A program made the position numbers and the translations under genes. A stretch of 64,000 nt of DNA from assembly GCA_028280415.1 (NCBI GenBank), contig JANQLV010000051.1, positions 124,001-188,000 on the forward strand. The letters run 5' to 3'. The DNA comes from Saprospiraceae bacterium. Lineage in GTDB: Bacteria; Bacteroidota; Bacteroidia; Chitinophagales; Saprospiraceae. How positions within the stretch are numbered: position 1 is the first letter of the stretch; each line of letters opens with the position of its first letter. Of this stretch, positions 20,645 to 35,783 are shown piece after piece. Below the pieces are notes generated by a model. The model was given only the letters and a program-made list of their open reading frames with translations, ran no database searches and was not told the origin of the DNA.

Positions 20645-21535
20645 TCAAGTAATATTCGATAATAATTCTAAAATTTCCTTTTTAATAAGGGCCATTTCGG
20701 TCCAGAGAATAAAATGATCGCCTTTTTCCACCATAGTTGTTTTGATACATAAATCATCTGTAATCATTGCCTTTGCAAAATCTGCATTAGCCTTTGGAAC
20801 AAGTACATCTTCTGTGCCTTGTACAACAGTAATGGGTACAGAGATATCAGCCCATCCATCCATCATTGCATCGAGTTCTCTGCGTAGCGGGATAATTTCC
20901 TGATTACAAACCCGAAGTGCCGAGGGTGTCAGCCAGCGAATGGGTGGAAAATCGATTACCTTTCGCCAGGCATTGGAGGGTTCCAGGCTCGGGCTGATCG
21001 AAGGAGCCACCATGACCAATCCATCGACCAGCTCCGGATGATCCATAACCAGGCGTGCAATCACCGGGCCACCCATTGAATGACCAACGAGTATTTTTTT
21101 CCTTCGGGGAAAATCTTCCAGGATACTGGCTATTAGTTCAGCTTGTATAAGCAGAGAAGAAACACTTTTTCCAAAATCCGAATAACCAAAACCAAGTCGA
21201 TCCACTGCTATCATATCCGAGTACTTGCTCAGTATCGTATCGGAAAAATATTCTTCGTAAGCATTCAGAGCACCGGGTGATCCGTGTACAAAAACGATCA
21301 GGGGTAATGAGGACCGGTTACCGATTTGCAAATAATGTAGTTCCCTTCCAAGTTTTTTTTTGGTTTTGAAAACCGGACTCATTTGTCCCTGCTCAATAAG
21401 CCACTGACTGAGTACCTGAGGATTATAGCGCATCTTTGCCCATTCCATCTTACTTACAAAAAAGAACAGGACTAAAAGGCCCAAGAACCAGAAGCGCTTC
21501 TTCTTATACCACTGCCTTTTTTTCTTCTTCATCAT
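20645..21535 (-). CDS. alpha/beta hydrolase, membrane-anchored
   Basis: A 296-residue alpha/beta-fold hydrolase anchored by one N-terminal helix after a Lys-rich start. The catalytic triad is visible: Ser153 in GHSMGG, Asp243 in GTEDVLVP and His274 in GDHFILW; HGSPG (84-88) forms the oxyanion hole. It starts 4 bp after the stop of the acyltransferase gene, so it belongs to the acyl-lipid operon and may be a lipase or thioesterase in the same pathway. The substrate is inferred only from context. Confidence 0.88.
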   Translation of the reverse strand: MMKKKKRQWYKKKRFWFLGLLVLFFFVSKMEWAKMRYNPQVLSQWLIEQGQMSPVFKTKKKLGRELHYLQIGNRSSLPLIVFVHGSPGALNAYEEYFSDTILSKYSDMIAVDRLGFGYSDFGKSVSSLLIQAELIASILEDFPRRKKILVGHSMGGPVIARLVMDHPELVDGLVMVAPSISPSLEPSNAWRKVIDFPPIRWLTPSALRVCNQEIIPLRRELDAMMDGWADISVPITVVQGTEDVLVPKANADFAKAMITDDLCIKTTMVEKGDHFILWTEMALIKKEILELLSNIT

Positions 21536-21539
21536 GTCC

Positions 21540-22295
21540 TTATACCTTTCCTTGTTCGGATAAATGCCAGCCTTTTCTCAATCTCAACAACTCTGCATCT
21601 ATCCACTGTTTGGATTTTTGCAAAAGTTGCTCGGGATCATCTCCCTGGATTTTTGGACCGTAACTCATTCGTACATAAATATTTTTATTGCTAAAACACT
21701 CAAAAAAATGTCGGAAGAAAGTATCGTCTCCAATCCAGGCATTGCTATCGCTCTGATACTCATGGACCAGTGGATAAAGAATAAATTGTTCCTTTGCCGC
21801 ATCTCTGAACAATCCTCTTTTAAACTCTATCGTTTGAGGTTCGATATGTGTTGTTCCTTCCGGATAATTAATAACAAAATAGCCTTTTTTCAGCATCTTC
21901 AATATTTCCTTCCTCGCCTGATCCCGACCTTCCCTGGTTTTACGATCCACAAACACTGCACCCGAAACCATAGCAGCATAACCAATAACCGGCCAGCTTT
22001 GTATTTCTGTCTTGCCAACTGGCAAGGCTAATATTTGGCTCAAAGTCAGTAAAGGATCGTAATAAGACCGATGGTTACAAACCAATAAGCCGGCTTCGAC
22101 AGGTTGCTCTCCATAAGTTGTAATATGCACGCCTAAAAATCTATGTACTTTACGAAACCACTCTTTCCTGAGCCGTAGCGCTCTGTCCAAATCATTTCCG
22201 ACAACAATCGCCTTCGCTAAATACCTGCTTACATAGAAGAGTGTACCGGTTATGAAGAATGTCAGCCGGGAAAATGCTCTTACAAAACCAATCAT
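21540..22295 (-). CDS. glsA: PlsC-like O-acyltransferase, probably GlsA of glycine-lipid synthesis
   Basis: A membrane-associated acyltransferase of 251 residues. Motif I NHRSYYD (H75, D80), FVDRKTREG and the PEGT motif (145-148) are intact. On its own it would be called a 1-acylglycerol-3-phosphate acyltransferase. Because a GlsB-like N-acyltransferase precedes it on the same strand, as in Bacteroides, I infer that it O-acylates the N-acyl-3-hydroxy-acyl glycine to give a glycine lipid. A heptamer repeat array occupies most of the 102-bp spacer and ends 7 bp before the ATG. Confidence 0.75.
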   Translation of the reverse strand: MIGFVRAFSRLTFFITGTLFYVSRYLAKAIVVGNDLDRALRLRKEWFRKVHRFLGVHITTYGEQPVEAGLLVCNHRSYYDPLLTLSQILALPVGKTEIQSWPVIGYAAMVSGAVFVDRKTREGRDQARKEILKMLKKGYFVINYPEGTTHIEPQTIEFKRGLFRDAAKEQFILYPLVHEYQSDSNAWIGDDTFFRHFFECFSNKNIYVRMSYGPKIQGDDPEQLLQKSKQWIDAELLRLRKGWHLSEQGKV

Positions 22296-22301
22296 AGAAA
22301 G

Positions 22302-22380
22302 CGTTTTTCGTTTTTCGTTTTTCGTTTTTCGTTTTTCGTTTTTCGTTTTTCGTTTTTCGTTTTTCGTTTTTCGTTTTTCG
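22302..22380. repeat. tandem heptamer repeat, 11 copies
   Basis: Eleven uninterrupted copies of CGTTTTT (AAAAACG on the transcribed minus strand) plus a partial CG. The array lies between the glsB-like stop (22398) and the glsA-like start (22295), inside the presumed mRNA leader of the second gene. Perfect copies suggest recent slippage. A unit of 7 does not preserve frame, but the array lies outside coding sequence. Confidence 0.95.
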
Positions 22381-22397
22381 AGGATTAAGATAAAAAA

Positions 22398-23318
22398 TCA
22401 CTTTTCATTTAAAAGCTGAATAATCGAGTCGGGTAAATGTTTTATATCCAAAATCATTAAACCATCCAGTGCATCCGAAAAATTGGGATCAATATTAAAA
22501 CTGATAAACTTCGCATTGAGTTTTGTATACTGCTTGAGTAAAACAGGTACTTTGACATGATCCGGTTCGATCGATTTTAAAAAAAACTCCAGATCCCTTA
22601 AGCGATCGCCCTTGATGGTATTAAGCATTTCTTCCAGATTCACTTGTTCCAAATCAGGCTTGAAAGGTGTCCTTGGTCTGAAGTGTACAGCCATTTTTTT
22701 ATCATAAAAATGGCGTTTGACAAATGCAACAATTAAACTTTTGGATATTCCGGAATAAAACTTACTAATGCTGACCGGGCCAATAAGATATTGATAATAG
22801 TCATTTTTAACGAGTACAGTTAGGATACCCTGCCAAAGCAAGAAAAAAGGTAAATAAGTTTTTTGATAAGCAGGTACGATATAGGAACGCCCCAGTTCTA
22901 TTGATCTTTCCAAAACCGGTAAGACGACATTATCTATTTCGAATAAGCTATTAATATAGAAACGTTCGAAACCGACGGCATGGCTAATCGTATCTCCCAT
23001 TCCCATTCGATAACCTCCTACTACACATTGTTGCTTCCGATCCCAGATAAAAAGGTTGAGATAATAATCATCGTACTCATCAATGTCTAAAGCCTTTCCT
23101 GTTCCTTCTCCGACCGAACGAAAAGTCAGCTCTCGCAAGCGACCGATCTCTCTTAACAAATGTGGTATCTCATAAGCTTTGGCCAGATATACGTCGAAGT
23201 TTCGTCTGGAAATCAAAAGGTGTTCCCTGCCAAGGTTTTTGATATCCCTGCATAAATCGCGTTTGGGGACAGGTCTTATCAATTTTTCCCTATAATCTAT
23301 TTTTTCGAATACTGACAT
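22398..23318 (-). CDS. glsB: GNAT-type N-acyltransferase, probably GlsB of glycine-lipid synthesis
   Basis: A 306-residue protein of the OlsB/GlsB acyl-ACP N-acyltransferase type. RELTFRSVGEGTGKALDID, YYLNLFIWD, VGGYRMGMG and ELGRSYIVPAYQK are family segments. In Bacteroides, GlsB transfers a 3-hydroxy-acyl chain to glycine and an adjacent O-acyltransferase completes the lipid. The adjacent PlsC-like gene supports that assignment; ornithine or another amino acid as acceptor is possible. It is first of three genes on this strand. Confidence 0.78.
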   Translation of the reverse strand: MSVFEKIDYREKLIRPVPKRDLCRDIKNLGREHLLISRRNFDVYLAKAYEIPHLLREIGRLRELTFRSVGEGTGKALDIDEYDDYYLNLFIWDRKQQCVVGGYRMGMGDTISHAVGFERFYINSLFEIDNVVLPVLERSIELGRSYIVPAYQKTYLPFFLLWQGILTVLVKNDYYQYLIGPVSISKFYSGISKSLIVAFVKRHFYDKKMAVHFRPRTPFKPDLEQVNLEEMLNTIKGDRLRDLEFFLKSIEPDHVKVPVLLKQYTKLNAKFISFNIDPNFSDALDGLMILDIKHLPDSIIQLLNEK

Positions 23319-23714: not shown

Positions 23715-25322
23715 ATGAAGAAAATCCAGCTTTGCAGCTTTGATGCGCTGCAGGAAAAAGAACCAAGCCACTATCAGGTCAATGGTCTCGATCTGGTGGT
23801 TATCCGCTACAATAATCAAGTTTCTGTACTATACGGCAGGTGCCTGCATCGGGGAGCTTTGCTTGCCGATGGATATATTGATGGGCAGAATCTGATCTGC
23901 GGTTTGCACAATTGGGATTATCGATACGATACCGGAGTCAGTGAATACAATAATGAAGAAGCACTGTATAAGTTTTATGCGGAAATTCAGGACGGCCAGG
24001 TTTGGATCAATGAAGAAGAGATCAATCAATATCTCGTAGATCATCCGCAGCCATTCAAAAGGGATCAATACCAGGGACAGTACGCGGACACTCATCCGGA
24101 GGATACCGAACCTTATACCCGGTATATTAAAGAACTGGCTCAAAATGGGCTCAAAAATTTTGGCCACCATGGCCCCTCTGCCTCAATGGGCGTCGATCGA
24201 AACACATTGCCCAAATGGGAAAACATTCAGTTTCTTCCGGCACAATTAGCCCGCAGGCCGCTACTGGATCACGAGGCAGTATCTACTCATGTCGTAATCG
24301 GCCCAAATGCAAAAAAACCTTTAAGGCTGGAGCTTCCTCTCTTTGTTTCAGATATGAGCTTTGGCGCTTTATCCCGCGAAGCTAAAATTGCACTTTCAAT
24401 GGGGGCCGAAATGGCTGGTACCGGGATTTGTAGTGGCGAAGGAGGAATGCTTCCCGAAGAGCAGGCCAACAACTCCAGGTATTTTTATGAATTAGCATCC
24501 GGCAAATTTGGTTTTTCTTTCGAAAAGGTAGCCAAAGCACAAGCCTTCCATTTCAAAGGCGGACAAGGCGCCAAGACCGGAACCGGTGGTCACTTGCCCG
24601 GGCATAAAGTGACCGAAGAAATTGCTGCGGTCCGTGGTTTACAAGTTGGTCAAGCCGCTATTTCTCCTGCTGCTTTTCCGGATTTATTCAGCGCCGATGA
24701 TTTTAAAGGGTTAGCAGAAGAGATTCGGGTCTTAACCGGCGGAATTCCCATTGGTTTCAAAATCGCAGCCAGTCATATCGAAGCGGATATCGACTTTGCG
24801 CTGTCCGTAGGAGTGGATTACCTTATCCTGGATGGCCGGGGAGGCGGTACAGGATCGGCCCCGACAATTTTGCGAAACAATATCAATGTTCCAACTATTC
24901 CTGCCCTGGCCAGAGCACGCAGGCATCTGGATAAAGTTGGTGCCAAAGGTATTTCTCTAGTCATCACCGGAGGTCTGCGGGTAGCCGAGGATTTTGCCAA
25001 AGCACTCATGCTGGGAGCTGATGCCATAGCTATTTCCAATTCCGCATTACAAGCTATCGGCTGCCTTGGTATGCGAGCCTGTGGTTCGAATAACTGTCCG
25101 GTCGGGATTGCAACACAGAAAGAAAACTTACGCCAAAGATTAATCATTGAAGCCTCCGCTCAGCAATTAAATAATTTTCTGACTGCAAGTAATGATCTGA
25201 TCAAAGTAATTGCAAGAGCCTGTGGTTATGATGATATCCGAAAATTCAACCATGAGGACCTAAGCACGATGGATTATGATATGCATCGACTGACGGGCAT
25301 TGCTTATGCCGGAATTTTGTAA
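23715..25322 (+). CDS. Rieske domain fused to glutamate-synthase-type FMN/Fe-S domain
   Basis: A 535-residue fusion. Residues 1-105 are a Rieske [2Fe-2S] domain with ligands Cys43, His45 (CLH) and Cys62, His65 (CGLH). Residues from about 160 on are the FMN-binding TIM barrel of glutamate synthase (LFVSDMSFGALSREAKIAL, FHFKGGQGAKTGTGG, DGRGGGTGSAPTI, VITGGLRVAEDF) with the Cys450/456/461 cluster in CLGMRACGSNNCPVG that binds [3Fe-4S] in GltB. The glutaminase domain is absent, so ammonia would have to come from elsewhere, or the reaction is different. It is first gene of a six-gene operon; the next starts 10 bp downstream. Confidence 0.9.
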   Translation: MKKIQLCSFDALQEKEPSHYQVNGLDLVVIRYNNQVSVLYGRCLHRGALLADGYIDGQNLICGLHNWDYRYDTGVSEYNNEEALYKFYAEIQDGQVWINEEEINQYLVDHPQPFKRDQYQGQYADTHPEDTEPYTRYIKELAQNGLKNFGHHGPSASMGVDRNTLPKWENIQFLPAQLARRPLLDHEAVSTHVVIGPNAKKPLRLELPLFVSDMSFGALSREAKIALSMGAEMAGTGICSGEGGMLPEEQANNSRYFYELASGKFGFSFEKVAKAQAFHFKGGQGAKTGTGGHLPGHKVTEEIAAVRGLQVGQAAISPAAFPDLFSADDFKGLAEEIRVLTGGIPIGFKIAASHIEADIDFALSVGVDYLILDGRGGGTGSAPTILRNNINVPTIPALARARRHLDKVGAKGISLVITGGLRVAEDFAKALMLGADAIAISNSALQAIGCLGMRACGSNNCPVGIATQKENLRQRLIIEASAQQLNNFLTASNDLIKVIARACGYDDIRKFNHEDLSTMDYDMHRLTGIAYAGIL

Positions 25323-25332
25323 AAAACATGTC

Positions 25333-25548
25333 ATGGAATCGGCAATCAATATTTTATTATCAATCGCCGGGATATATCTTTTGGCCGGTGTACTATTCTC
25401 GATATTTTTTCTTTGGAAAGGACTAGTCAATGTTGATCCCGCTGCCAAAGGCAGTGGTTGGTTTTTTAAAGTATTAATATTTCCGGGTTTATGTTTTTTC
25501 TGGATTTTATTTTTAAAAAAATGGATTAAAAGTAATTCCAAAAACTGA
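25333..25548 (+). CDS. small two-helix membrane protein
   Basis: A 71-residue protein with two hydrophobic helices (INILLSIAGIYLLAGVLFSI and FKVLIFPGLCFFWILFL) joined by a short loop with VDPAAKGSGW, and a basic C-terminus. I chose ATG 25333; an in-frame ATG at 25300 would overlap the upstream gene and add a charged tail. It is unrecognised by family, but its place in the Rieske operon suggests a small subunit of the membrane complex. Confidence 0.75.
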   Translation: MESAINILLSIAGIYLLAGVLFSIFFLWKGLVNVDPAAKGSGWFFKVLIFPGLCFFWILFLKKWIKSNSKN

Positions 25549-25554
25549 TCAGTT

Positions 25555-25644
25555 ATGAAGCCATCGTTAAGAGTACGGCATTTTAACATCTGGATAATTA
25601 TCGTACTTTTTGTCTCTTTAATTTTAATGCTTGCTATACAATGA
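25555..25644 (+). CDS. 29-residue single-helix membrane peptide
   Basis: A tiny ORF: MKPSLRVRHFNIW, then a helix of about 16 hydrophobic residues ending MLAIQ. It starts 6 bp after the previous stop and its TGA overlaps the next ATG (ATGA at 25641-25644), so it fills the gap between two operon genes exactly and would couple their translation. The positive-inside N-terminus suggests a single-pass protein like the small subunits of membrane redox complexes. The alternative is a chance ORF, but the spacing makes that less likely. Confidence 0.6.
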   Translation: MKPSLRVRHFNIWIIIVLFVSLILMLAIQ

Positions 25645-26678
25645 GCGCCAATTACACTTCCATTCTGTGGAATAAGCAAAAGAAAAAATACGATCTCCTG
25701 CTTTGGGCAGGTATTTTTCTGATGCTCGTTTCATTTTCTGCTTTCCAGCTTTTATTGCATCCGGAGAGTACAGCAGAAACATTAATTATTCGGGCAACAG
25801 CTTTGACCGCGTTGGTGCTTCTTCATTTGATTTTAGCCATTGGCCCGCTCGCCAGACTCAATCCCAAGTTTTTGCCTTTACTTTATAACCGCAGGCATCT
25901 TGGTGTTTCCATGTTTTTCATTGCTCTAGTACACAGCGTTTTTTGTATCATCCAGTTCCATGTACTTGGAGATAAGAACCCCATTGTAAGTATTTTTATT
26001 TCCAACCAAAAATACCTGGCAATTAGTGCTTTCCCTTTCCAGACACTTGGTTTTACCGCTTTGATTATCTTTTTTCTGATGGCAGCTACCAGTCATGATT
26101 TTTGGTTAAAAAACCTCAGTCCGAAAGTTTGGAAAGGGCTACATATAATGGTCTATTTTGCCTATGCTTTGATCATTCTTCACGTTGCATTGGGTGCTTT
26201 GCAATATGATGGACATCCCTTTTACTGGACTTTGCTCTTTCTTGGTTTTTTCGGCATCAGTGCTTTACATCTTTACACTGGAATAAAAGAGCGCAAAAGG
26301 CTTCGAGCTGACCGATCGCTACTCAAAGAAAATGGTTTTTATAAAGTCTGTACAATCGAAGACATTGAAGAAAACTGTGCAAAAACCGTTTTTATTGATG
26401 GAGAGAATATCGCCATTTTCAAATACGATGGAAAGGTATCCGCTGTACACAATGTTTGTAAACATCAAATGGGTCCCCTCGGAGAAGGTAAAATTATTGA
26501 AGGTTGTATTACCTGTCCCTGGCATGGCTATCAGTACTTGCCTGAAAATGGTCAGTCGCCTCCGCCTTTCGAAGAGAAAGTTAAAACCTATGAGGTCAAA
26601 GTTTTAAATAAAGAAATATGGGTCAATCCCGAGCCTCATGCAGAAGGTACTTTTATTGAACCTGCAAAATTGCTTTAA
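25641..26678 (+). CDS. ferric-reductase-like membrane domain fused to a Rieske domain
   Basis: A 345-residue fusion. Residues about 15-215 hold six hydrophobic helices of the ferric-reductase/MsrQ type, with candidate haem ligands His86, His98, His168 and His181 in helices. Residues 230-330 are a Rieske domain with Cys273/His275 (CKH) and Cys292/His295 (CPWH). Such a protein could pass electrons between quinol or a soluble donor and a partner enzyme across or along the membrane. Its start overlaps the upstream mini-ORF and its stop is 1 bp before the next gene. Confidence 0.88.
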   Translation: MSANYTSILWNKQKKKYDLLLWAGIFLMLVSFSAFQLLLHPESTAETLIIRATALTALVLLHLILAIGPLARLNPKFLPLLYNRRHLGVSMFFIALVHSVFCIIQFHVLGDKNPIVSIFISNQKYLAISAFPFQTLGFTALIIFFLMAATSHDFWLKNLSPKVWKGLHIMVYFAYALIILHVALGALQYDGHPFYWTLLFLGFFGISALHLYTGIKERKRLRADRSLLKENGFYKVCTIEDIEENCAKTVFIDGENIAIFKYDGKVSAVHNVCKHQMGPLGEGKIIEGCITCPWHGYQYLPENGQSPPPFEEKVKTYEVKVLNKEIWVNPEPHAEGTFIEPAKLL

Positions 26679-26679
26679 T

Positions 26680-27477
26680 ATGAAAGAGCAAAATGATTTT
26701 TATATTGGCTGGAAAGATGACATGCCTCCGGATAACAAAAGGTTTTTAAAAAAAATTCTAATCCCTTTATTCATCCTGATCCCTGTTCTGTTATTTGCTA
26801 TAGTTTTTTTTCAAAAACCTTTCAATAATCATCAATTCGAATTCGGAAATATTAAAACGATCAGCGGTATTTATTATGATATGCCTGTACCTATGCTTAT
26901 TGCAGATAAAGGAACGATTCCGGATTCTCTTTCTCACGATATTATTTTAGTAGGTTATGGTAAGTTTGGAGCAAAAGGAATAATGTCAGAAATTGAAAAA
27001 GAAAAGGGTAGATTAAATGGTAAAAAAATAAGTTTGTCCGGCACCTTAATCTATGGCGATGGCAAGACCCTTCTCGAACTTACCGAAGAAAAAGCTTCCT
27101 TAAAAGCAGTCGCTAATGACCGCCCCAGGCAAAATCCTACGCTTTCCGGTCTGAAAGATATAAGTCTCTATGGAGAAGTGATCGATCCGAAATGTTACTT
27201 CGGTGTGATGAAACCCGGAGAAGGTAAAACCCACAAAAGCTGTGCAATCAGATGTATCAGTGGTGGCATCCCCCCGGTTTTTAAACATAAAAAAAAGGAG
27301 GCTGGTAAAAATGCGGAGTATTATCTCATCCTCAACCGCGATGGTAAAGCTATCAATAAAGAAATTCTCCCATTAGTCGCCGAGCAAATAACTTTAAAAG
27401 GAAAGACGCATCGCTTTTTAAGCTGGAATTTACTTTACCTGGATACCCAGGCTATCAAGGATGCAATGGCTCAATAA
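26680..27477 (+). CDS. membrane-anchored Cys/His protein of the Rieske operon
   Basis: A 265-residue protein with a cytoplasmic N-terminus, one membrane helix (about 25-44) and a soluble domain. The notable part is KCYFGVMKPGEGKTHKSCA followed by IRC, giving Cys172, His185, Cys188 and Cys192, arranged like a haem, copper or Fe-S site. The surrounding GEVIDPKC and CISGGIPP segments look conserved but I cannot name the family. I chose ATG 26680, 1 bp after the upstream stop, over an in-frame ATG at 26638 inside the previous gene. Confidence 0.8.
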   Translation: MKEQNDFYIGWKDDMPPDNKRFLKKILIPLFILIPVLLFAIVFFQKPFNNHQFEFGNIKTISGIYYDMPVPMLIADKGTIPDSLSHDIILVGYGKFGAKGIMSEIEKEKGRLNGKKISLSGTLIYGDGKTLLELTEEKASLKAVANDRPRQNPTLSGLKDISLYGEVIDPKCYFGVMKPGEGKTHKSCAIRCISGGIPPVFKHKKKEAGKNAEYYLILNRDGKAINKEILPLVAEQITLKGKTHRFLSWNLLYLDTQAIKDAMAQ

Positions 27478-27507
27478 TCCCTTTTTACTAAAATTAAAAT
27501 CAATAAC

Positions 27508-29457
27508 ATGGAAAAAGATAAGCAGGTCTGGTACAAGGTTCTGGATAATAAAAAAGAATTGTTGGAAGGCAGAGTAATGACCGTTACCGCCGGTCACAAA
27601 ACGCTTTGCCTCACTCATTTTGAAGGTAAGTATTGTGCGCTGGATAACAAATGCCCGCATCAGGGAGGCCCGCTGGGTGAAGGGTCAATAGAAAATGGCC
27701 TGCTTCGCTGCCCCTGGCACGGTTGGGACTTTCATCCCTGCACCGGTCTTGCTCCCGGTTTTGATGACGGGGTAGAAACTTTTCCAGTAAAAATAGAAGG
27801 AGATCAGATATACGTAAGTCTCGAAGAAGAAGCGCCGCATCAAACCAATATTTCGGATATTATGGCAGAGACGATGGTTAACTGGGGCGTCAATCGGGTT
27901 TTCGGAATGGTTGGGCACTCCAATTTAGGTTTAGCTGATGCGCTTCGGCGACAGGAGGAAAAAGGCAATTTAAAGTTCATCGGAATTCGTCATGAAGGAG
28001 CCGCTTCCTTTGCTGCTTCTGCCTACGGCAAACTTACCGGGAGACCTGCAGCCTGCTTTGCCATAGCCGGACCGGGAGCGACCAATATGTTTACCGGTTT
28101 ATGGGATGCCAAAGTTGACCGAGCGCCTATCCTCGCTTTAACCGGACAAGTCGCCACACAGGTTGTAGGAACCGGTAACTTCCAGGAACTCGATCTGATC
28201 AAAGCTTTTAACACCGTTGCAGAATTCAACCATCGGGTACAATACAAAAGCAGGCATAGCGAGTTGATGTCCCTTGCAATTAAACATGCCATCCTTAAAA
28301 GAGATGTTTCGCATCTTAGCTTCCCGGATGAGGTGCAAACAATTCCGGTCAAGGCACATAAAAAAGCACAGACTCCGGAAGGAAGAATTACCCCAATGAC
28401 AATTATGCCACCCCGGGAATCATTTGAGCAGGCATTAAACTTACTTAATGAATCTGAAAGACCTGCAATCATTGTAGGGCACGGCGCACGTTTTCATATG
28501 GAAGGAGTGATTAAACTTGCCGAAAAACTGAATTGTCCCGTTATGACCACTTTTAAAGGAAAGGGGCTAATTGCAGATAATCATCCCCTGGGTTGTGGTG
28601 TATTGGGAAGAAGTGGTACTCCCATCGCGTCCTGGTTTATGAATGAAGCTGACTTATTATTAGTTATAGGAGCATCCTTTTCCAAACATACGGGAATCAC
28701 CCCCAAGATCAGAACTATCCAAATCGACTTCGATCCACTGGCTTTGAGCAAATTCCATAAAGTGGATGCAGCCGTTTGGGGAGAAATATCTGTCACTGTC
28801 GAAATGCTCAATCAACAGCTCTCAAATTTTGGCAATAAGCAAAACCACCTTGAAGAAATTGCTAATCGCTGGGCAATCTGGAAAGCCGAAAAGAGCAAAC
28901 GCTTATTGGAAGATCGCGGTAAAGGTATCAGCTCCATCGCAGTATTTGATGCACTTAATCAGTATGCTCCTGAAGATGCGGTCATGTGTGTAGACGTTGG
29001 CAATAATGCCTATTCTTTTGGCCGCTATTTTGAAACGAAAAAACACAGCTTTCTCATGTCCGGTTATCTTGGCTCTATTGGTTTTGCATTACCCGCAGCA
29101 ATGGGCGCCTGGGCCGCAGTAGATAGAGAAAGGCCAGTCATTGCAGTGGCTGGAGATGGTGGTTTTTGTCAATACCTGGCAGAAGTTACTACTGTCGCTA
29201 AATACGACATGCCCATTAAGATCATTGTGCTGAATAATAATGAACTTGGGAAAATTTCAAAAGAACAACGGGCCGGAGAATTTGATATATGGGCAACTTC
29301 CCTCGTAAATCCGGACTTTGCGAACTATGCCGAAAGCTGTGGTATACTGGGAATACAGGTCAAGGAAAAAGATCAGTTATATCCCGCAATGGAAAAGTTG
29401 ATGCAGCATGATGGTCCAGGTTTACTGGAAGTTAAAACCGATGTAGCATTATTATAA
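27508..29457 (+). CDS. Rieske domain fused to thiamine-diphosphate-dependent enzyme
   Basis: A 649-residue fusion. Residues 1-105 are a Rieske domain (Cys49/His51 in CPH, Cys68/His71 in CPWH). From about 112 on it is a complete three-domain ThDP enzyme of the acetolactate synthase/pyruvate oxidase type: catalytic Glu163 in IRHEGAASFAA, AIAGPGATNMFTGL, and the ThDP-Mg motif GDGG (549-552) ending in NNN (576-578). Pyruvate oxidases decarboxylate a 2-oxoacid and pass electrons to quinone through FAD; here a fused [2Fe-2S] centre suggests electron transfer to the other Rieske proteins. It is the last gene of the operon and is followed by a terminator. Confidence 0.9.
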   Translation: MEKDKQVWYKVLDNKKELLEGRVMTVTAGHKTLCLTHFEGKYCALDNKCPHQGGPLGEGSIENGLLRCPWHGWDFHPCTGLAPGFDDGVETFPVKIEGDQIYVSLEEEAPHQTNISDIMAETMVNWGVNRVFGMVGHSNLGLADALRRQEEKGNLKFIGIRHEGAASFAASAYGKLTGRPAACFAIAGPGATNMFTGLWDAKVDRAPILALTGQVATQVVGTGNFQELDLIKAFNTVAEFNHRVQYKSRHSELMSLAIKHAILKRDVSHLSFPDEVQTIPVKAHKKAQTPEGRITPMTIMPPRESFEQALNLLNESERPAIIVGHGARFHMEGVIKLAEKLNCPVMTTFKGKGLIADNHPLGCGVLGRSGTPIASWFMNEADLLLVIGASFSKHTGITPKIRTIQIDFDPLALSKFHKVDAAVWGEISVTVEMLNQQLSNFGNKQNHLEEIANRWAIWKAEKSKRLLEDRGKGISSIAVFDALNQYAPEDAVMCVDVGNNAYSFGRYFETKKHSFLMSGYLGSIGFALPAAMGAWAAVDRERPVIAVAGDGGFCQYLAEVTTVAKYDMPIKIIVLNNNELGKISKEQRAGEFDIWATSLVNPDFANYAESCGILGIQVKEKDQLYPAMEKLMQHDGPGLLEVKTDVALL

Positions 29458-29492: not shown

Positions 29493-29513
29493 GGCGCAGG
29501 ATTAGCCTGCGCC
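29493..29513 (+). terminator. terminator of the Rieske operon
   Basis: Perfect 8-bp GC-rich stem GGCGCAGG/CCTGCGCC with a 5-nt loop, 35 bp after the last stop and followed by a T-rich stretch (CTTTACTATTTTATTCTTTG). Confidence 0.85.
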
Positions 29514-29681: not shown

Positions 29682-30935
29682 ATGGATACGCCTATTTCAT
29701 CTTTAGAAAAACGAAAGTACAATCTCAGACAATGGTTTAAGTACTTGTTTATTCTAGCACTGATAATAGCTGGAATTTTCTTACTGAGAAATTTATTAAA
29801 AACAGAAGTCAAAAAAGAAGATTTCATCTTCGCCTATGTCGAAAGAGGAGATATGGAAAATACGATCTCTGCATCCGGAATGGTTATCCCTTCTTTCGAA
29901 CAGCAAATTAATGCTCCGGTAAGTACCGAAATCAAACAGATACATCTCAATTCGGGAACCAGAGTCGAGCCAAATGATCTGATCCTTAGTCTGGATGATG
30001 AATATATCAATCTGGAATTCGCATCTCTCAAAGATCAATTAGAACTCAAAAAAAATAATATTACCAAACTAAAGCTGGAATACCACAAAGACCTTAAAGA
30101 ACTGGATTACGAAGATCAGATTAAAGGACTTCGTTTAAGTAGTCTGGAGGCCAGTTTGACCGATATGCAAAGGTTAAAAACCATAGGCAGTGCTACCCAG
30201 GAAGAAGTTGAGCAGGCAGCATTAAATGTCCAAATTGAGAAGCTGGAAAAGAAGAAACTGGAGAATCAACTCAATTTCAGAAAAAAAGTGATCAGTAGTG
30301 ATGAACGCAATCTGGAGCTGGAAGTATTGATCCAGGACAAGAAGTTACGCGAGCTTTCCCGCAAACTCCAGGAAACCGCTGTAAGAGCTCCACGTGGAGG
30401 AGTGATTACCTGGGTCAACGAAAATATTGGTCAAAAAGTCAATGAAGGAGACCCTCTGGTTCGCATCGCCAATCTGGAAAGTTTTAGAATTGAAGCTACC
30501 TGCTCAGATCGCTATTCAAATTTGATCAAGGTTGGCATGCCTGTAAAAGTCAGAGTAAATCGAACCATGATCGAAGGAGTAATCAATTCCATCCTCCCCG
30601 CAGTAGAAAATAATACCATCGCTTTTGTAGTCCTGCTCAATGAATCCAATCATCAGGACTTGCGACCTAATATGCGGGTAGAGGTATTCATCATTTCCGA
30701 TAAAAAAGAAGATGTTGTAAAAGTGAGAAACGGATCGGCATTTACAGGCGGCGTCGAGCAGGAGGTATTCGTCGTCGAAGGTTCAAAAGCCATAAAGCGA
30801 AAAGTAAAAATCGGCCTGACTAATACAGAGTTTGTAGAGCTCCGTGGAGAAAATATTCAGCCGGGAGAACAAATCATTATTTCCGATATGCAGGACTTTA
30901 TCCATCTGGATATAATCAACCTGATACAGGATTAA
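29682..30935 (+). CDS. HlyD/MacA-type periplasmic adaptor of an efflux pump
   Basis: A 417-residue membrane-fusion protein: short cytoplasmic tail, one helix (about 20-40), split lipoyl/barrel-sandwich domain (NAPVSTEIKQIHLNSGTRV and VRAPRGGVITWVNENIGQKV), a long coiled-coil hairpin (about 110-230, Lys/Glu/Leu-rich) and beta-barrel plus membrane-proximal domains. It would bridge the ABC permeases and the TolC-like channel encoded downstream. It is the first gene of a seven-gene run. Confidence 0.92.
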   Translation: MDTPISSLEKRKYNLRQWFKYLFILALIIAGIFLLRNLLKTEVKKEDFIFAYVERGDMENTISASGMVIPSFEQQINAPVSTEIKQIHLNSGTRVEPNDLILSLDDEYINLEFASLKDQLELKKNNITKLKLEYHKDLKELDYEDQIKGLRLSSLEASLTDMQRLKTIGSATQEEVEQAALNVQIEKLEKKKLENQLNFRKKVISSDERNLELEVLIQDKKLRELSRKLQETAVRAPRGGVITWVNENIGQKVNEGDPLVRIANLESFRIEATCSDRYSNLIKVGMPVKVRVNRTMIEGVINSILPAVENNTIAFVVLLNESNHQDLRPNMRVEVFIISDKKEDVVKVRNGSAFTGGVEQEVFVVEGSKAIKRKVKIGLTNTEFVELRGENIQPGEQIIISDMQDFIHLDIINLIQD

Positions 30936-30964
30936 TTTTTATTTGAAAATCGATAGCGACAATA

Positions 30965-32425
30965 ATGAAAAATATTTATCAAAACATCATCTTTTGTTTG
31001 GTCATAGCATGTCCGGTAATGCTCTTTGGACAATCACTGGACACGCTATCTTTAGAGCAATTAATTGCTCTGGCAGAAAAGCGGTCGCTCGTTAGTGCCG
31101 AGGCAAAATTTGATATGGAATCTGCTACTTATACTTTTTCTATCTTTAAATCCGGATTAAAACCTCAGATCAGTGGAACGGCCAGGCTACCCAATTACGC
31201 TAAAACTTCCAGTGAAATTATTCAGCCGGACGGAACAGTTCTATTTCAACCAATTACAAATAATAATTCATCAATTGGCATACAGGCCATTCAAAATATA
31301 GTCAGTACCGGTGGAGCGATTTTTCTGGAATCCAACCTACAGCGCTTCGATAATCTGGAAAGCAAGGAAAAATTTTATAATGGCGCCCCTTTCCGTCTGG
31401 GGATCATTCAGCCGCTTTTTCAATTCAATCCATTAAAATGGGATAAAAAAATCGAACCGATCAGATATCTCGAAGCAGAAAAGAAGTTCGACGCGGATAT
31501 GGAGCAGATTAAACTCGAAGCTACCGCACTTTTTTTTAACTTATTAATCGCCAGAGAAGATTTGAATATTGCCATTTCAAATCGTGAAAATAATCAGACG
31601 ATTTTCGATGTTGCAAAAGAGCGGTTCGAATTGGGAAAAATTTCAGAAAATGACCTAATGGCTCTAAGGCTGGAACTAGTTTCTGCCAGCCGAAATGCCA
31701 AGAGAGCAGAGCAAGCTGTCCGGATGGCTTCTGCCCGGATTTTCACTTTCCTGGGAATCAGCTATGATCATCAAATGATCTGGCCAGGCATCCCGGAGGT
31801 CAAGGAAGAATTTACAGTAGAGGCCGAATTTGCAATTAAGCAGGCTTTGGAAAATCGCCCCGAAGTCGAAAGTCTAAAACGCCGGATTCTGGAAGCGGAA
31901 CGAAATCTGGCGGAAATCAAAGGTCAAAGTGGCCTTAATGCCGACCTGACCGCATCCATTGGTTTTTCAAGAGGCGCTACAGCCCTGGAAGATATTTATA
32001 TCGATCCCCGACAGGAACAATTTGTCAGCATCAGTCTAAGTCTTCCGATTGTCGATTGGGGCCGGCAAAAAAATCAAATTGCTTTATCCAAAGCTACCAG
32101 GGATTTAACTCAAAAAAGAATGCAACAGGAACGGCTGCAATTAGAAACGGATATCAAACAGATGGTCGATCAATTCAAAAATATCCAACAAGAGTTAGCT
32201 CTGGTGAAAGAGCTAAAAAAAATCGCACAAGACCGATTTGAAATCACGAAGCAAAGTTACCTGCTCAGTGCAATCAGTCTGACGGAACTGACCCTGGCCC
32301 AGAGAGAAAAGGATCAAGCTGCCAGAGAATATATTGCAACACTCAGCCAGTTTTGGACAAGCTATTATGGCTTACAGGTACTGACCATTTACGATTTTAA
32401 TAAAAACAAAAAAATAAATCACTAA
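30965..32425 (+). CDS. TolC-family outer-membrane efflux protein
   Basis: A 486-residue outer-membrane channel subunit with signal peptide (MKNIYQNIIFCLVIACPVMLFG) and two long alpha-helical/coiled repeats as in TolC (for example ARREDLNIAISNRENNQT-like and LALVKELKKIAQDRFEITKQ segments). The usual SLEQLIALAEK start of TolC-like proteins is seen after the signal. It starts 29 bp after the adaptor gene. Confidence 0.9.
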   Translation: MKNIYQNIIFCLVIACPVMLFGQSLDTLSLEQLIALAEKRSLVSAEAKFDMESATYTFSIFKSGLKPQISGTARLPNYAKTSSEIIQPDGTVLFQPITNNNSSIGIQAIQNIVSTGGAIFLESNLQRFDNLESKEKFYNGAPFRLGIIQPLFQFNPLKWDKKIEPIRYLEAEKKFDADMEQIKLEATALFFNLLIAREDLNIAISNRENNQTIFDVAKERFELGKISENDLMALRLELVSASRNAKRAEQAVRMASARIFTFLGISYDHQMIWPGIPEVKEEFTVEAEFAIKQALENRPEVESLKRRILEAERNLAEIKGQSGLNADLTASIGFSRGATALEDIYIDPRQEQFVSISLSLPIVDWGRQKNQIALSKATRDLTQKRMQQERLQLETDIKQMVDQFKNIQQELALVKELKKIAQDRFEITKQSYLLSAISLTELTLAQREKDQAAREYIATLSQFWTSYYGLQVLTIYDFNKNKKINH

Positions 32426-32483
32426 TTCGCAAACTAATCGATTATCAGAAAGTGAAAATCAATTCCAATAAAAATTTAAAATC

Positions 32484-33149
32484 ATGATAAAACTCAATAA
32501 CGTAAACAAAATTTACAAGACAAAAAGTGTCGAGACCCTGGCACTCAACAATATCAATTTGAATATCAATGAAGGAGAATTCCTCTCGATAATGGGACCT
32601 TCGGGTTGTGGAAAAAGTACTCTGCTAAATATCATGGGACTTATCGACGAACCATCTCAGGGTGAAGTCTCAATTAGTGGCTATCGCATCGACGATTATA
32701 CGGGAAAATCGGTCGCCAAATTTCGCAATGAACACCTCGGTTTTATTTTTCAAAGTTTCCATCTCATTAACGATTTGTCGGTGATCGATAACGTAGAGTT
32801 GCCGCTGCTTTATCGCAAAGTAAGTTCCAAAATGCGTCGGCAGCTAGCCGAAGAAGCTTTGATTAAAGTCGGTTTAAAAAATCGAATGAAGCATTTTCCA
32901 AGTCAACTTTCCGGCGGACAAAAACAAAGAGTGGCTATCGCCAGAGCCATCGTTGGCAAACCCAATATCATTCTGGCAGATGAACCAACAGGTAATCTCG
33001 ACAGTGCAATGGGTAATGAAGTTATGGATATCCTGCTCGGTCTGAACCAGGAGGAAAAAACGACTATTGTTATGGTCACTCACGATGAACTCATGGCCAA
33101 AAAAACGAATCGATTAATACGTTTGTTCGATGGAAGTCAGGTGCAGTAG
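32484..33149 (+). CDS. MacB/LolD-type ABC transporter ATPase
   Basis: A 221-residue ATPase with Walker A GPSGCGKS (38-45), Q-loop IFQSFHLI, signature LSGGQKQR and Walker B ILADEPTGNLD, the last typical of the MacB/LolD/FtsE subfamily that works with FtsX-like permeases and transmits force to a periplasmic adaptor instead of moving substrate through the membrane. Two such permeases follow. Confidence 0.93.
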   Translation: MIKLNNVNKIYKTKSVETLALNNINLNINEGEFLSIMGPSGCGKSTLLNIMGLIDEPSQGEVSISGYRIDDYTGKSVAKFRNEHLGFIFQSFHLINDLSVIDNVELPLLYRKVSSKMRRQLAEEALIKVGLKNRMKHFPSQLSGGQKQRVAIARAIVGKPNIILADEPTGNLDSAMGNEVMDILLGLNQEEKTTIVMVTHDELMAKKTNRLIRLFDGSQVQ

Positions 33150-33263
33150 TTAGAAAAGAAGGGTAACTAATCTGGAAAAGGTTCTGGGAGGATCACGATC
33201 GAATGATAGTTATTAATTGGAAGCCGAACCTCAAATTCATGAATATCGAAAATCAAAAATATT

Positions 33264-34601
33264 ATGCTTAAAAATTATTTCAAAATAGCCATTAAAGTAC
33301 TGGGGCGAAGAAAGTTTTTTACCGCTATCAGCTTGTTTGGTATCAGTTTCACTTTGATGATTCTAATGATTGCTACTGCTTTTTTCGAATCAGAGTTGGG
33401 TAATGATGCGCCACTCAAAAATCGTGATTATCTGGTTTATGTTCCAATGGTAAGCATTTCGAAGGATTATCAGGATACCATTATTCAAGTTGATACGCAT
33501 TTCATCGATAATATTGCCAAATACGATACGACCTTAAGTTTTGAGCCTGCAGGACGATCCATGTCCAGATCAAGTCCCAGTTATACTTTTTTAAGAAACA
33601 ATTTGTCGGATATCCCTTTTGTCGATAAGATGAGCATTTTTAGCAGAGGTGTGAGTTACGATATTTTTATCAATAGTAAAAAAGTAAACTTTGGAGCCGT
33701 CTTCGTCGATGAGAATTACTGGGATATTTACAATTTTACATTTATCGATGGTCAGGCTTTTGGTAAAACAGCTATTGATAATCAGGAACAAGTAGCGATA
33801 ATCAGCAAAAAGGCCAGTCTCGATTATTTTGGTACTGTTGAAAATGTCATCGACAAGGAAGTAATGCTCGACGGAAAGCATTATACGGTCAAAGGAGTTA
33901 TTGATTCCGGCATTTCTTCTGCCTCTGAAATCAATGCAGAAATTTATCTGCCTTATACACATGTTAAACCCAGTGATCTCAAAGACAAAAGTTTTTTGGG
34001 ATCATTTGCCGCAATCTTTCTGGCCAAGGATAAAAAATCGGTACAGAAGATCAAAAATGAGATTAACCAAAAGGAAAAACGTATTGAAATTCCCACTGAC
34101 CTCTATGATTATGATAAGATCGACATCGAGGTGATGACCTTTTTCGAAAGGTATGCAAAAGGGATTATTTCTTCAGACAAGCCGGAAGAGAGTTTTAGAA
34201 TATTGTTCGGAGTAATACTCTTTTTCCTACTGCTTTTTTTTCTGCTTCCGACCTTAAACCTAATCAATATTAACGTAAGTCGAATTCTGGAACGATCCTC
34301 CGAAATTGGAGTCCGCAAAGCTTTTGGAGCTAATTCCCAGAATATTCTCTTGCAGTTTATTTTTGAAAATATCATCCTCACTTTTATCGGAGGGGTACTC
34401 GGTTTTCTGTTTGCACTCATCGTTATTTATCTGGTCAACGATAGCCAAATCCTGGGAGATACCACTTTACATTTTAACTATAAGGTCTCTATCTATAGTT
34501 TTTTCCTTTGTCTGATTTTCGGTATCGTTTCCGGTTATATTCCCGCCTGGAGAATGTCCAGAGTTCATATTGTCAACGCTTTAAAACAAAACCAATTATG
34601 A
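33264..34601 (+). CDS. FtsX-type ABC permease (first of two)
   Basis: A 445-residue MacB-like permease: N-terminal helix, large periplasmic domain (about 45-310) and three C-terminal helices with the conserved RSSEIGVRKAFGA cytoplasmic loop. The genes encode separate half transporters which should pair with each other. Its stop overlaps the start of the second permease gene (ATGA). Confidence 0.92.
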   Translation: MLKNYFKIAIKVLGRRKFFTAISLFGISFTLMILMIATAFFESELGNDAPLKNRDYLVYVPMVSISKDYQDTIIQVDTHFIDNIAKYDTTLSFEPAGRSMSRSSPSYTFLRNNLSDIPFVDKMSIFSRGVSYDIFINSKKVNFGAVFVDENYWDIYNFTFIDGQAFGKTAIDNQEQVAIISKKASLDYFGTVENVIDKEVMLDGKHYTVKGVIDSGISSASEINAEIYLPYTHVKPSDLKDKSFLGSFAAIFLAKDKKSVQKIKNEINQKEKRIEIPTDLYDYDKIDIEVMTFFERYAKGIISSDKPEESFRILFGVILFFLLLFFLLPTLNLININVSRILERSSEIGVRKAFGANSQNILLQFIFENIILTFIGGVLGFLFALIVIYLVNDSQILGDTTLHFNYKVSIYSFFLCLIFGIVSGYIPAWRMSRVHIVNALKQNQL

Positions 34602-35782
34602 CTAAGCATATTTTCACACTAATCTGGAATAAAAAGAAGAAAAATTTCCTGCTTTTGCTAGAGATATTTTTTGCTTTTCTCATTCTTTTCGGAGTATTTA
34701 CATTTGTGATCAGTAATCTGCGCAATTACATAACTCCACTGGGTTTCGATACGGAAAATGTCTGGCTGGCCAGAATGGAAGTACCTCAAGATGTCGATTC
34801 CGCAGATTTTGCTCAGATGCGCCAGTTGCTTAGAACAGAACTTGAGGCTATACCGGAAGTTGAGCAAGTATCTTATACCATTAACATTACCCCTTTTTCC
34901 AACTCTGCCTGGCAAAACGGAACGGATGAAAATGGTTTTGATCTCAATGCCCGAATAATTCAGAATGATGAATACTATGAAGAAACCGGAGGGCTCAATA
35001 TCATTGAAGGACGATGGTTTATCAAAGATGATGTTCATTCGAAATATAAACCAGTGGTTATCTCCAAAATGTTACGAGATCTCGGCTGGCGAGGAAAACC
35101 GGTAATTGACAGCCTTTTTATATTCAATTATGATGACGGCCCCGATAACCAGGTAAAAATAGTAGGTGTAGTGGATCATTATAAATACATGGGAGAGTTT
35201 ACGGAAGAATATAATATGATTTTTATATACGAACCGACCACCTCTACTAACCTGGATTGTATGTATATACGGGTAAAAGACAATGCCAGCCCGACTCTGG
35301 AAGAGCAAATCAATAAAACCATCGCTGCGATTACTAAGCGCAATGATTTTATTATACAGACGCTAGAAAGTCAGCGCAAAAGAAAAAGCAGGCAAACCTG
35401 GATTCCCATTGGTATCCTGTTGGGTATCGGTAGTTTTCTGATTATCAATGTTGCACTTGGCTTATTCGGCGTACTCTGGTACAATATCAACAAGCGGCGG
35501 CCAGAGATTGGCTTGCGCAGAACACTAGGAGCTACAAAATCTGATATAGCCCGACAGTTCATCGGTGAGATTCTCATGGTTGCTTTTTTCGGAATAATAC
35601 TCGCAGCCTTTTTTACAATGCAATTTCCAATGATGAAGTTATTCGATATAGAAAACATTAACTATTATTACGCCATGTTAATCTCGGCAGGTGTTATTAT
35701 TTTACTGGTTTTGCTTTGTTCTTTCTATCCAAGTCGACAAGCGGCCTTAATTAATCCGGCAATTGCATTGCACGAAGATTAA
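34598..35782 (+). CDS. FtsX-type ABC permease (second of two)
   Basis: A 394-residue partner permease with the same layout: one helix, periplasmic domain, three C-terminal helices, and the loop NKRRPEIGLRRTLGATKSD. I chose ATG 34598 (4-bp overlap with the upstream stop), which puts the first helix 15 residues in; an in-frame ATG at 34508 would lie inside the upstream gene. It is less similar to the first permease outside the helices, which suggests a heterodimer. Confidence 0.92.
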   Translation: MTKHIFTLIWNKKKKNFLLLLEIFFAFLILFGVFTFVISNLRNYITPLGFDTENVWLARMEVPQDVDSADFAQMRQLLRTELEAIPEVEQVSYTINITPFSNSAWQNGTDENGFDLNARIIQNDEYYEETGGLNIIEGRWFIKDDVHSKYKPVVISKMLRDLGWRGKPVIDSLFIFNYDDGPDNQVKIVGVVDHYKYMGEFTEEYNMIFIYEPTTSTNLDCMYIRVKDNASPTLEEQINKTIAAITKRNDFIIQTLESQRKRKSRQTWIPIGILLGIGSFLIINVALGLFGVLWYNINKRRPEIGLRRTLGATKSDIARQFIGEILMVAFFGIILAAFFTMQFPMMKLFDIENINYYYAMLISAGVIILLVLLCSFYPSRQAALINPAIALHED

Positions 35783-35783
35783 A

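Follow-up and report, generated by a model that had tools for sequence, protein, structure and literature searches.

Why should one operon of a Saprospiraceae bacterium encode three different proteins that each carry a Rieske [2Fe-2S] domain of their own? The six genes concerned lie at 23715-29457 in a window of 64,000 nucleotides of contig JANQLV010000051.1 (assembly GCA_028280415.1, positions 124,001 to 188,000), where position 1 is the first letter, and all are read in the same direction on the plus strand, with gaps of 10, 6, -4, 1 and 30 bp. A sequence-only reading of this DNA had drawn the same open reading frames (ORFs) and gaps, had placed Rieske domains on three different protein bodies and had found the ligands of each intact. 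Our analysis reproduces all of this, with Pfam domains found in P0001, P0004 and P0006 and the four Cys/His ligands (CxH and CxxH) present in every Rieske domain. Only four Rieske matches at E <= 0.001 are found in the whole 7.1 Mb genome, which has a completeness rating of 99.4%, and three of these are in the operon. We give an even chance to the explanation that the genes specify a modular redox system, in which the Rieske domain would be a built-in electron port on three bodies, linking keto-acid oxidation, a glutamate synthase (GltS)-type enzyme and a membrane haem protein. The genes and their domains are as follows.

23715..25322, plus strand: P0001, 535 residues, Rieske [2Fe-2S] domain and flavin mononucleotide (FMN)/[3Fe-4S] glutamate-synthase core, without a glutaminase domain
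23724..23936, plus strand: Rieske domain of P0001 (residues 4-74; ligands C43, H45, C62, H65; Pfam 3.6e-12)
24252..25229, plus strand: Glu_synthase FMN core of P0001 (residues 180-505; [3Fe-4S] cysteines C450, C456, C461; Pfam 8e-85)
25333..25548, plus strand: P0002, 71 residues, small protein with two predicted transmembrane segments
25555..25644, plus strand: P0003, 29 residues, transmembrane stub
25641..26678, plus strand: P0004, 345 residues, YedZ/MsrQ-type ferric-reductase membrane domain with a C-terminal Rieske domain
Residues 55-178 of P0004, plus strand: Ferric_reduct domain (Pfam 4.4e-14)
26337..26558, plus strand: Rieske domain of P0004 (residues 233-306; ligands C273, H275, C292, H295; Pfam 5.6e-17)
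26680..27477, plus strand: P0005, 265 residues, N-terminal transmembrane helix, two OB-like domains and a Cys/His motif
27193..27255, plus strand: Cys/His motif of P0005 (residues 172-192; C172/H185/C188/C192), invariant in 18 alignment rows
27508..29457, plus strand: P0006, 649 residues, Rieske domain and pyruvate-oxidase-like thiamine diphosphate (ThDP) enzyme
27529..27747, plus strand: Rieske domain of P0006 (residues 8-80; ligands C49, H51, C68, H71; Pfam 1.7e-14)
27847..29433, plus strand: ThDP 2-oxoacid enzyme body of P0006 (residues 114-642; G-H137-S and G-K582-I-S signatures; Pfam TPP_enzyme N, M and C)

The fusions are not occasional neighbours, for they recur together in many phyla. 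A scan of GTDB genomes with P0006 gave 573 relatives, the best 80 of which (at least 62% identity) are the named loci L077-L156; 39 of these are well flanked (9 kb or more upstream, 7 kb or more downstream). Near the ThDP fusion, a Rieske-GltS gene is found in 45 of the 80 loci (26 of the 39 well flanked), a P0004-type gene in 19 (12), a P0005-type gene in 17 (11) and an NhaP-type Na+/H+ antiporter in 25 (19), the last being a common extra member that the operon itself lacks; a relative of P0002 is present in 15 of the 80. A weak GltS match at L138 (172 bits) was excluded from the neighbour count, eight of 156 proteins were left out of the neighbour-protein set, and no P0006 ORF was obtained for L139 and L146. 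The 80 loci include Bacteroidota, Chlorobiota, Rhodothermota, Acidobacteriota, Nitrospirales, Planctomycetota, Calditrichota, KSB1 and Gemmatimonadetes, as well as Cyanobacteria (Xenococcus, Leptothoe, Geitlerinema) and Gammaproteobacteria (Shewanella hanedai, Thiodiazotropha, Parabeggiatoa). Outside Bacteroidota, Rieske-GltS accompanies the ThDP fusion in Acidobacteriota (L102, L139), Planctomycetota (L142), Nitrospirales (L145, L152), Gammaproteobacteria (L151, L156) and one cyanobacterium (L154), and P0004 stands beside it in L102, L143 and L145.

The order of these genes is itself informative. If P0001 is taken as block 1, P0002 to P0005 as block 2-3-4-5, P0006 as block 6 and the antiporter as N, twelve arrangements of at least two blocks are seen, among them 1-6, 1-6-N, 1-2-3-4-5-6, 1-6-2-3-4-5, 1-N-6-2-3-4-5 and 6-N-1-2-4-5, and the internal order of the 2-3-4-5 genes is kept across loci. 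The count covers plus-strand chains only, leaving out the opposite-strand partners of L097 and L143, and counts L138 as 1-6. Intact blocks have thus been shuffled repeatedly, a pattern more in keeping with selection for joint function than with the inheritance of a single old operon. Acetyl-CoA synthetase, considered as a further partner, occurs in four of the 80 loci, in three of them on the opposite strand, and was not used. Often an uncharacterised protein of about 245-290 residues is encoded just after Rieske-GltS (L085:7717-8520 and 33 other loci); it resembles DUF5996 by eye, the one that was scanned has no Pfam match, and one copy is present in the genome studied here, on another contig (L209).

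Co-occurrence was counted in two sets, 150 family genomes (this one included) and 395 of the phylum. P0006 is present in 18 of the 150 family genomes at 67-100% identity, other full-length ThDP enzymes reaching at most 33%; a 109-residue fragment in G083 (58%) was not counted. Rieske-GltS accompanies Rieske-ThDP in 17 of 18 family genomes (expected 5.8; Fisher 5.5e-9) and 10 of 11 in the phylum set; it accompanies P0004 in 19 of 26 (expected 8.3) and 12 of 13; and Rieske-ThDP is joined by P0004 in 15 of 18 (expected 3.1) and six of 11. Within the stretches from the 17 other family genomes with P0006, Rieske-GltS lies beside it in eight and P0004 in seven. Together with the named-locus counts and the block arrangements, these figures lead us to reject a chance neighbourhood. 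The commonest fusion is Rieske-GltS, with 48 genomes in either set, those of the phylum without single verification of the Rieske ligands and those of the family reduced from 51 by removal of G117 and G087 (CDGSH-GltS only) and G043 (a partial match). It looks like a hub, being the commonest and often present without the other two, and the ThDP fusion is found without it in only one of 18 family and one of 11 phylum genomes. In one of these phylum genomes (G327) a second Rieske-GltS paralogue, at L160:5105-6739 on the minus strand, keeps the Rieske shape and has lost the Cys/His ligands.

The system is modular, since the membrane module and Rieske-GltS each occur without the others. P0001-P0002-P0004-P0005 clusters are found in genomes with no P0006 match (L165, L176), and the P0002-P0003-P0004-P0005 module without Rieske-GltS is seen among L214-L220 and L071-L073. 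There a short-chain dehydrogenase/reductase (SDR) is next to the membrane module, annotated as such on Rhizobium plasmids and SDR-like in L215-L217, and a LysE-like gene adjoins P0004-P0005 in L219 and L220. The composition of the six genes is conserved, and their arrangement is modular rather than fixed.

Plasmids extend the distribution to a second domain of life, in part. Both soluble fusions are encoded on three haloarchaeal plasmids, of Halorarius, Halorubrum and Salinirubellus (about 58% and 56% identity), and on the Halorarius plasmid an antiporter adjoins the ThDP gene; on a Haloferax plasmid the ThDP fusion is present and Rieske-GltS gave no match at E <= 1e-100. The ThDP fusion is also encoded on a Mycobacteroides plasmid (52% identity), some 3 kb from a cation:proton antiporter. 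The two fusions are annotated on plasmids as 'thiamine pyrophosphate-binding protein' and 'glutamate synthase-related protein'. One Rhizobium plasmid match, covering 99% of P0006, contains two stops and no Rieske motif and so is no Rieske fusion, and phage records gave only weak GltS-core matches, none covering 80% of P0001. A TauE/SafE-type sulfite exporter is encoded at most 8 kb from the ThDP gene in three of the four haloarchaeal plasmids and about 34 kb away in L179, and DsrE or redoxin genes are present in three of the four stretches (L074, L179 and L180, not L075).

Did the three Rieske domains arise by copying within the operon? The sequence-only reading called them similar, and they are of the same kind; they are not equally similar, however, with 37% identity between those of P0004 and P0006 and 22-26% between that of P0001 and either. 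In a tree of 83 Rieske domains the clade of P0001 is supported at 100/98, and the P0004 and P0006 domains are nearer each other yet fall in separate groups, the first weak (63/55) and the second interrupted by five long outgroup rows. The tree thus gives no support to a recent duplication of a single Rieske domain, within the limits that few columns and long branches set on it, and each domain was probably acquired long ago in an event of its own.

For P0001, the only domain calls over cut-offs are Rieske and Glu_synthase. Its core can be aligned with glutamate synthases across both the FMN and the [3Fe-4S] sites. With the ferredoxin-dependent and NADPH enzymes of known structure (PDB 1OFE/1LLW and 1EA0) it shares the [3Fe-4S] cysteines, kept as C450-x5-C456-x4-C461, and the motif QGAK..G.GG.LPG.KV; their KPGEGGQ motif reads KTGTGGH in P0001. 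Compared with the large chain of those enzymes, P0001 lacks the glutaminase, central and GXGXG domains and has gained the Rieske domain. The GltB central domain (PF04898, Glu_syn_central) has no match in this genome, whereas 13 of 14 control genomes matched; the one other full Glu_synthase match is a 559-residue frame that includes P0009 (YerD-type; 34% to the core).

The closest sisters of P0001 that we found outside the Rieske group, with 61-63% core identity, have two CDGSH-type motifs at the N-terminus instead. They are encoded on two Vibrio plasmids and in four family genomes (L229-L232, L177, L178), and the Vibrio proteins match Pfam zf-CDGSH at 3.1e-20 and 6.2e-21. Two family genomes, G091 and G121, have both Rieske-GltS and CDGSH-GltS. 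Tandem CDGSH joined to a glutamate synthase FMN domain is known as type 5 CISD (Lin et al. 2011, PMC3174974), and the architecture also appears in PMC5859297. Type 5 CISD and P0001 thus both have an N-terminal histidine-ligated [2Fe-2S] module on a GltS core, two CDGSH motifs (3Cys-1His) in the former and, in place of the tandem, one Rieske domain (2Cys-2His) in the latter. That two unrelated modules of this sort occupy the same slot is our best hint that the slot is probably an electron entry port of the core.

P0006 resembles pyruvate oxidases, and its best PDB match is PoxB. Its best NCBIfam model is pyruvate oxidase PRK08611 (415 bits, below the model cut-off of 742), and it shares with PoxB and the Bacillus-type PRK08611 enzymes the three TPP domains and E163, which aligns with the Glu of the RHE motif in pyruvate oxidases and which we take to be the catalytic Glu position. 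It differs from them in its N-terminal Rieske domain, in its own G-H-S and G-K-I-S signatures, and at the C-terminus. The match ends at residue 525 of 572 in PoxB and 642 of 649 in P0006, only seven residues before the end, so that the C-terminal tail by which PoxB binds the membrane is absent. In the pocket, G-H137-S stands for the G-D-S of PoxB and two Bacillus-type oxidases, and Lys582 replaces Met in the latter and, in PoxB, a Phe of the hydrophobic pocket that we take to be Phe465. Both H137 and K582 are invariant in 13 family rows and in alignments A3 and A5; a Sinorhizobium relative has Gln at the Lys582 position. Either pyruvate or a 2-oxoacid with more negative charge may thus be the substrate. 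A malic enzyme gene in five of the 80 loci (Roseivirga, Cyclobacteriaceae, Dokdonia) weakly favours pyruvate.

The membrane unit is centred on P0004, whose model has six long helices. It carries the YedZ/STEAP haem signature, with R84 for the first His (an assignment that rests on a 14-residue spacing) and H98, H168 and H181, all invariant in 18 rows. In PMC3591440, YedZ/MsrQ-type ferric-reductase domains likewise have Arg for the first haem His and three further His in transmembrane helices 3 and 5, and the architectures given there include a Rieske extension. Whereas YedZ/MsrQ works with the MsrP molybdoenzyme, none is encoded among the six genes (the search for MsrP went no further than these), and the partners of P0004 are Rieske-GltS, Rieske-ThDP and P0005. 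In the PDB the P0004 model is matched best by Rieske ferredoxins from dioxygenase systems, and all 50 matches listed cover the Rieske part and none the membrane part. The operon's Rieske domains are alike in sequence to those of BphA3 and CarAc of the aromatic dioxygenases, and for P0004 in predicted fold too, but they are fused here to other enzymes and no oxygenase is among the six genes. P0001 and P0006 have no transmembrane segment, and the N-terminal charge and helix number of P0004 lead us to place its Rieske domain with them in the cytosol.

The smaller membrane proteins P0002, P0003 and P0005 match no Pfam family at E <= 0.1. P0005 has an invariant C-x12-H-x2-C-x3-C motif, and its AlphaFold2 model (mean predicted local distance difference test score 83.9), with two OB-like domains, has no PDB match at E <= 0.001. 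In three genomes P0004 and P0005 form a single ORF (L046, which is L107; L221; and L145 of Nitrospirales). The sequence-only reading took P0003 to be a 29-residue membrane protein. The ORF stands, and it appears to be only the first part of a longer anchored protein: its counterpart has 120-163 residues in 13 named loci (ORFs below 55 residues are unlisted, so that shorter forms may be missed), and its first 25 or so residues resemble that protein in the three loci compared by eye. Shorter forms have 29 residues in L039 and 53 in Rhizobium.

How might such proteins work together? A relay in which 2-oxoacid oxidation feeds a membrane haem protein and an enzyme of the reductive-amination type had been suggested earlier, and it remains the best-fitting reading, partly supported by the conserved composition. 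The electron transfers, substrates, direction, sidedness, and haem and flavin adenine dinucleotide (FAD) binding that follow are all what we infer. P0006 would oxidatively decarboxylate a 2-oxoacid, pyruvate or a related and perhaps more anionic one, and pass electrons from ThDP, presumably through FAD, to its own Rieske domain rather than to quinone. In P0001 the Rieske domain would replace free ferredoxin, or the CDGSH domains of the sister family, and the enzyme would probably use free ammonia for the reductive amination of 2-oxoglutarate or a similar 2-oxoacid. The cytosolic Rieske domain of P0004 would exchange electrons with the soluble fusions, its haems connecting to the quinone pool, the periplasmic Cys/His protein P0005, or both, with P0002 and P0003 as probable small subunits. 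Overall, electrons would flow from the 2-oxoacid through P0006 and Rieske domains to P0001, and to P0004 and on to quinone or P0005. The pyruvate/acetate and CO2 couple lies near -0.7 V, Rieske ferredoxins near -0.15 V and 2-oxoglutarate and NH4+/glutamate near -0.12 V; these potentials allow downhill transfer from P0006 to P0001 and from P0006 to haem and menaquinone, and we therefore favour that direction. A more ambitious form of the proposal is a network, in several bacterial phyla and haloarchaea, in which direct Rieske-to-Rieske transfer would couple 2-oxoacid oxidation to amino-acid synthesis without NAD(P)H or free ferredoxin, the Rieske-haem membrane unit being an overflow or alternative connection; this we regard as possible and distinctly tentative.

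Several observations weigh against the relay. Among the 80 ThDP loci, 28 have no Rieske-GltS, P0004 or antiporter in the fetched piece (many are short contigs), and 13 of the 39 well-flanked loci have no Rieske-GltS. The genomes counted for co-occurrence are related, and for that reason the p-values, which ignore phylogeny, are no more than a guide; seven of the 18 family stretches are on the same contigs as named loci, so that locus and family counts are not independent. Rieske-GltS alone, without the other two fusions, is the commonest state, P0004 is found without Rieske-GltS in seven of 26 family genomes (and one of 13 in the phylum set), and the membrane module stands beside an SDR without Rieske-GltS in three family genomes (L215-L217) and on Rhizobium plasmids. 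Finally, pyruvate is not secure as the substrate, since H137 and K582 replace invariant positions.

Could the genes form a co-regulated salt, pH or oxidative-stress set with no direct relay, each Rieske domain being reduced by general ferredoxin reductases? The frequent neighbours would suit such a set (antiporter in 25 of the 80 loci, DUF2721 in 22, DUF427 in 11, ion channel in seven, YHS in seven and EgtD in six), as would the DsrE, redoxin and sulfite-exporter genes of the haloarchaeal stretches and the occurrence of Rieske-GltS without the other fusions. A role in the response to salt or pH is indeed possible, as antiporters and ion channels recur beside P0006; the antiporter is absent from all 20 Rieske-GltS stretches drawn from genomes without P0006 and present at L225, which also lacks P0006. 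Yet a stress set leaves unexplained why one cofactor domain was recruited separately onto three co-occurring bodies in a genome with only one further Rieske match, and we think it unlikely. Still less probable, in our judgement quite improbable, is a reverse flow in which a quinol or periplasmic donor at P0005 would feed P0004 and then the Rieske domain of P0001, with P0006 as a second, independent donor. The P0001-P0002-P0004-P0005 clusters without P0006 in L165 and L176 speak for it, implying that the membrane unit can serve P0001 alone, but inward electron movement would oppose the membrane potential, and MsrQ passes electrons outward to periplasmic MsrP. MsrQ-like systems are also modelled with cytosolic donors in PMC8238504, which again counts against reverse flow.

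The identity of the 2-oxoacid is a separate matter. P0006 might act on 2-oxoglutarate or on a sulfur- or phosphonate-bearing 2-oxoacid in a specialised catabolism, a reading that is compatible with the relay, so that our confidence in the two overlaps. The invariant His137 and Lys582, against Asp and Met/Phe in pyruvate oxidases, favour it, as does the TauE/SafE-type exporter within 8 kb of the ThDP gene on three of the four haloarchaeal plasmids; the best NCBIfam model is nevertheless a pyruvate oxidase, and malic enzyme, found in five of the 80 loci, makes pyruvate. On balance we lean against a substrate other than pyruvate.

The surroundings of the operon add the following feature.

29493..29513, no strand: bidirectional terminator-like hairpin 3' of the operon (8 pairs, 7 G-C)

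The number of terminator-like sites in the region is at chance level, as is the result of a promoter scan. Genes 5' of the operon (20645-23318) are on the opposite strand. Downstream, at 29682-37160 on the same strand, an HlyD/TolC/ABC efflux-like set, FtsX-type permeases and a sigma-54-type response regulator can be read from the sequence.

Each part of this system is a variant of a known family, and the ferric-reductase-Rieske and CDGSH-GltS architectures are already in print; what is new is the combination and the shared port. No description of the Rieske-ThDP fusion, the Rieske-GltS fusion or the cluster, and no characterised pathway that matches it, was found in the literature searched, which lay outside subscription papers and preprints. 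The composition is also conserved in distant genomes of several bacterial phyla and, in part, of archaea, and the sequence-only reading thus stands where occasional adjacency or a pathway already described would have told against it. Testable functions can now be proposed for the two soluble fusion enzymes and for P0005, which is conserved and membrane-anchored and matches no Pfam family. The exchange of Rieske for CDGSH on one core is a natural experiment on the role of histidine-ligated [2Fe-2S] domains. If the relay is real, it would join the oxidation of keto acids both to nitrogen assimilation and to the membrane in a carrier-free way, and this in a genome where the central domain of classical glutamate synthase has no match.

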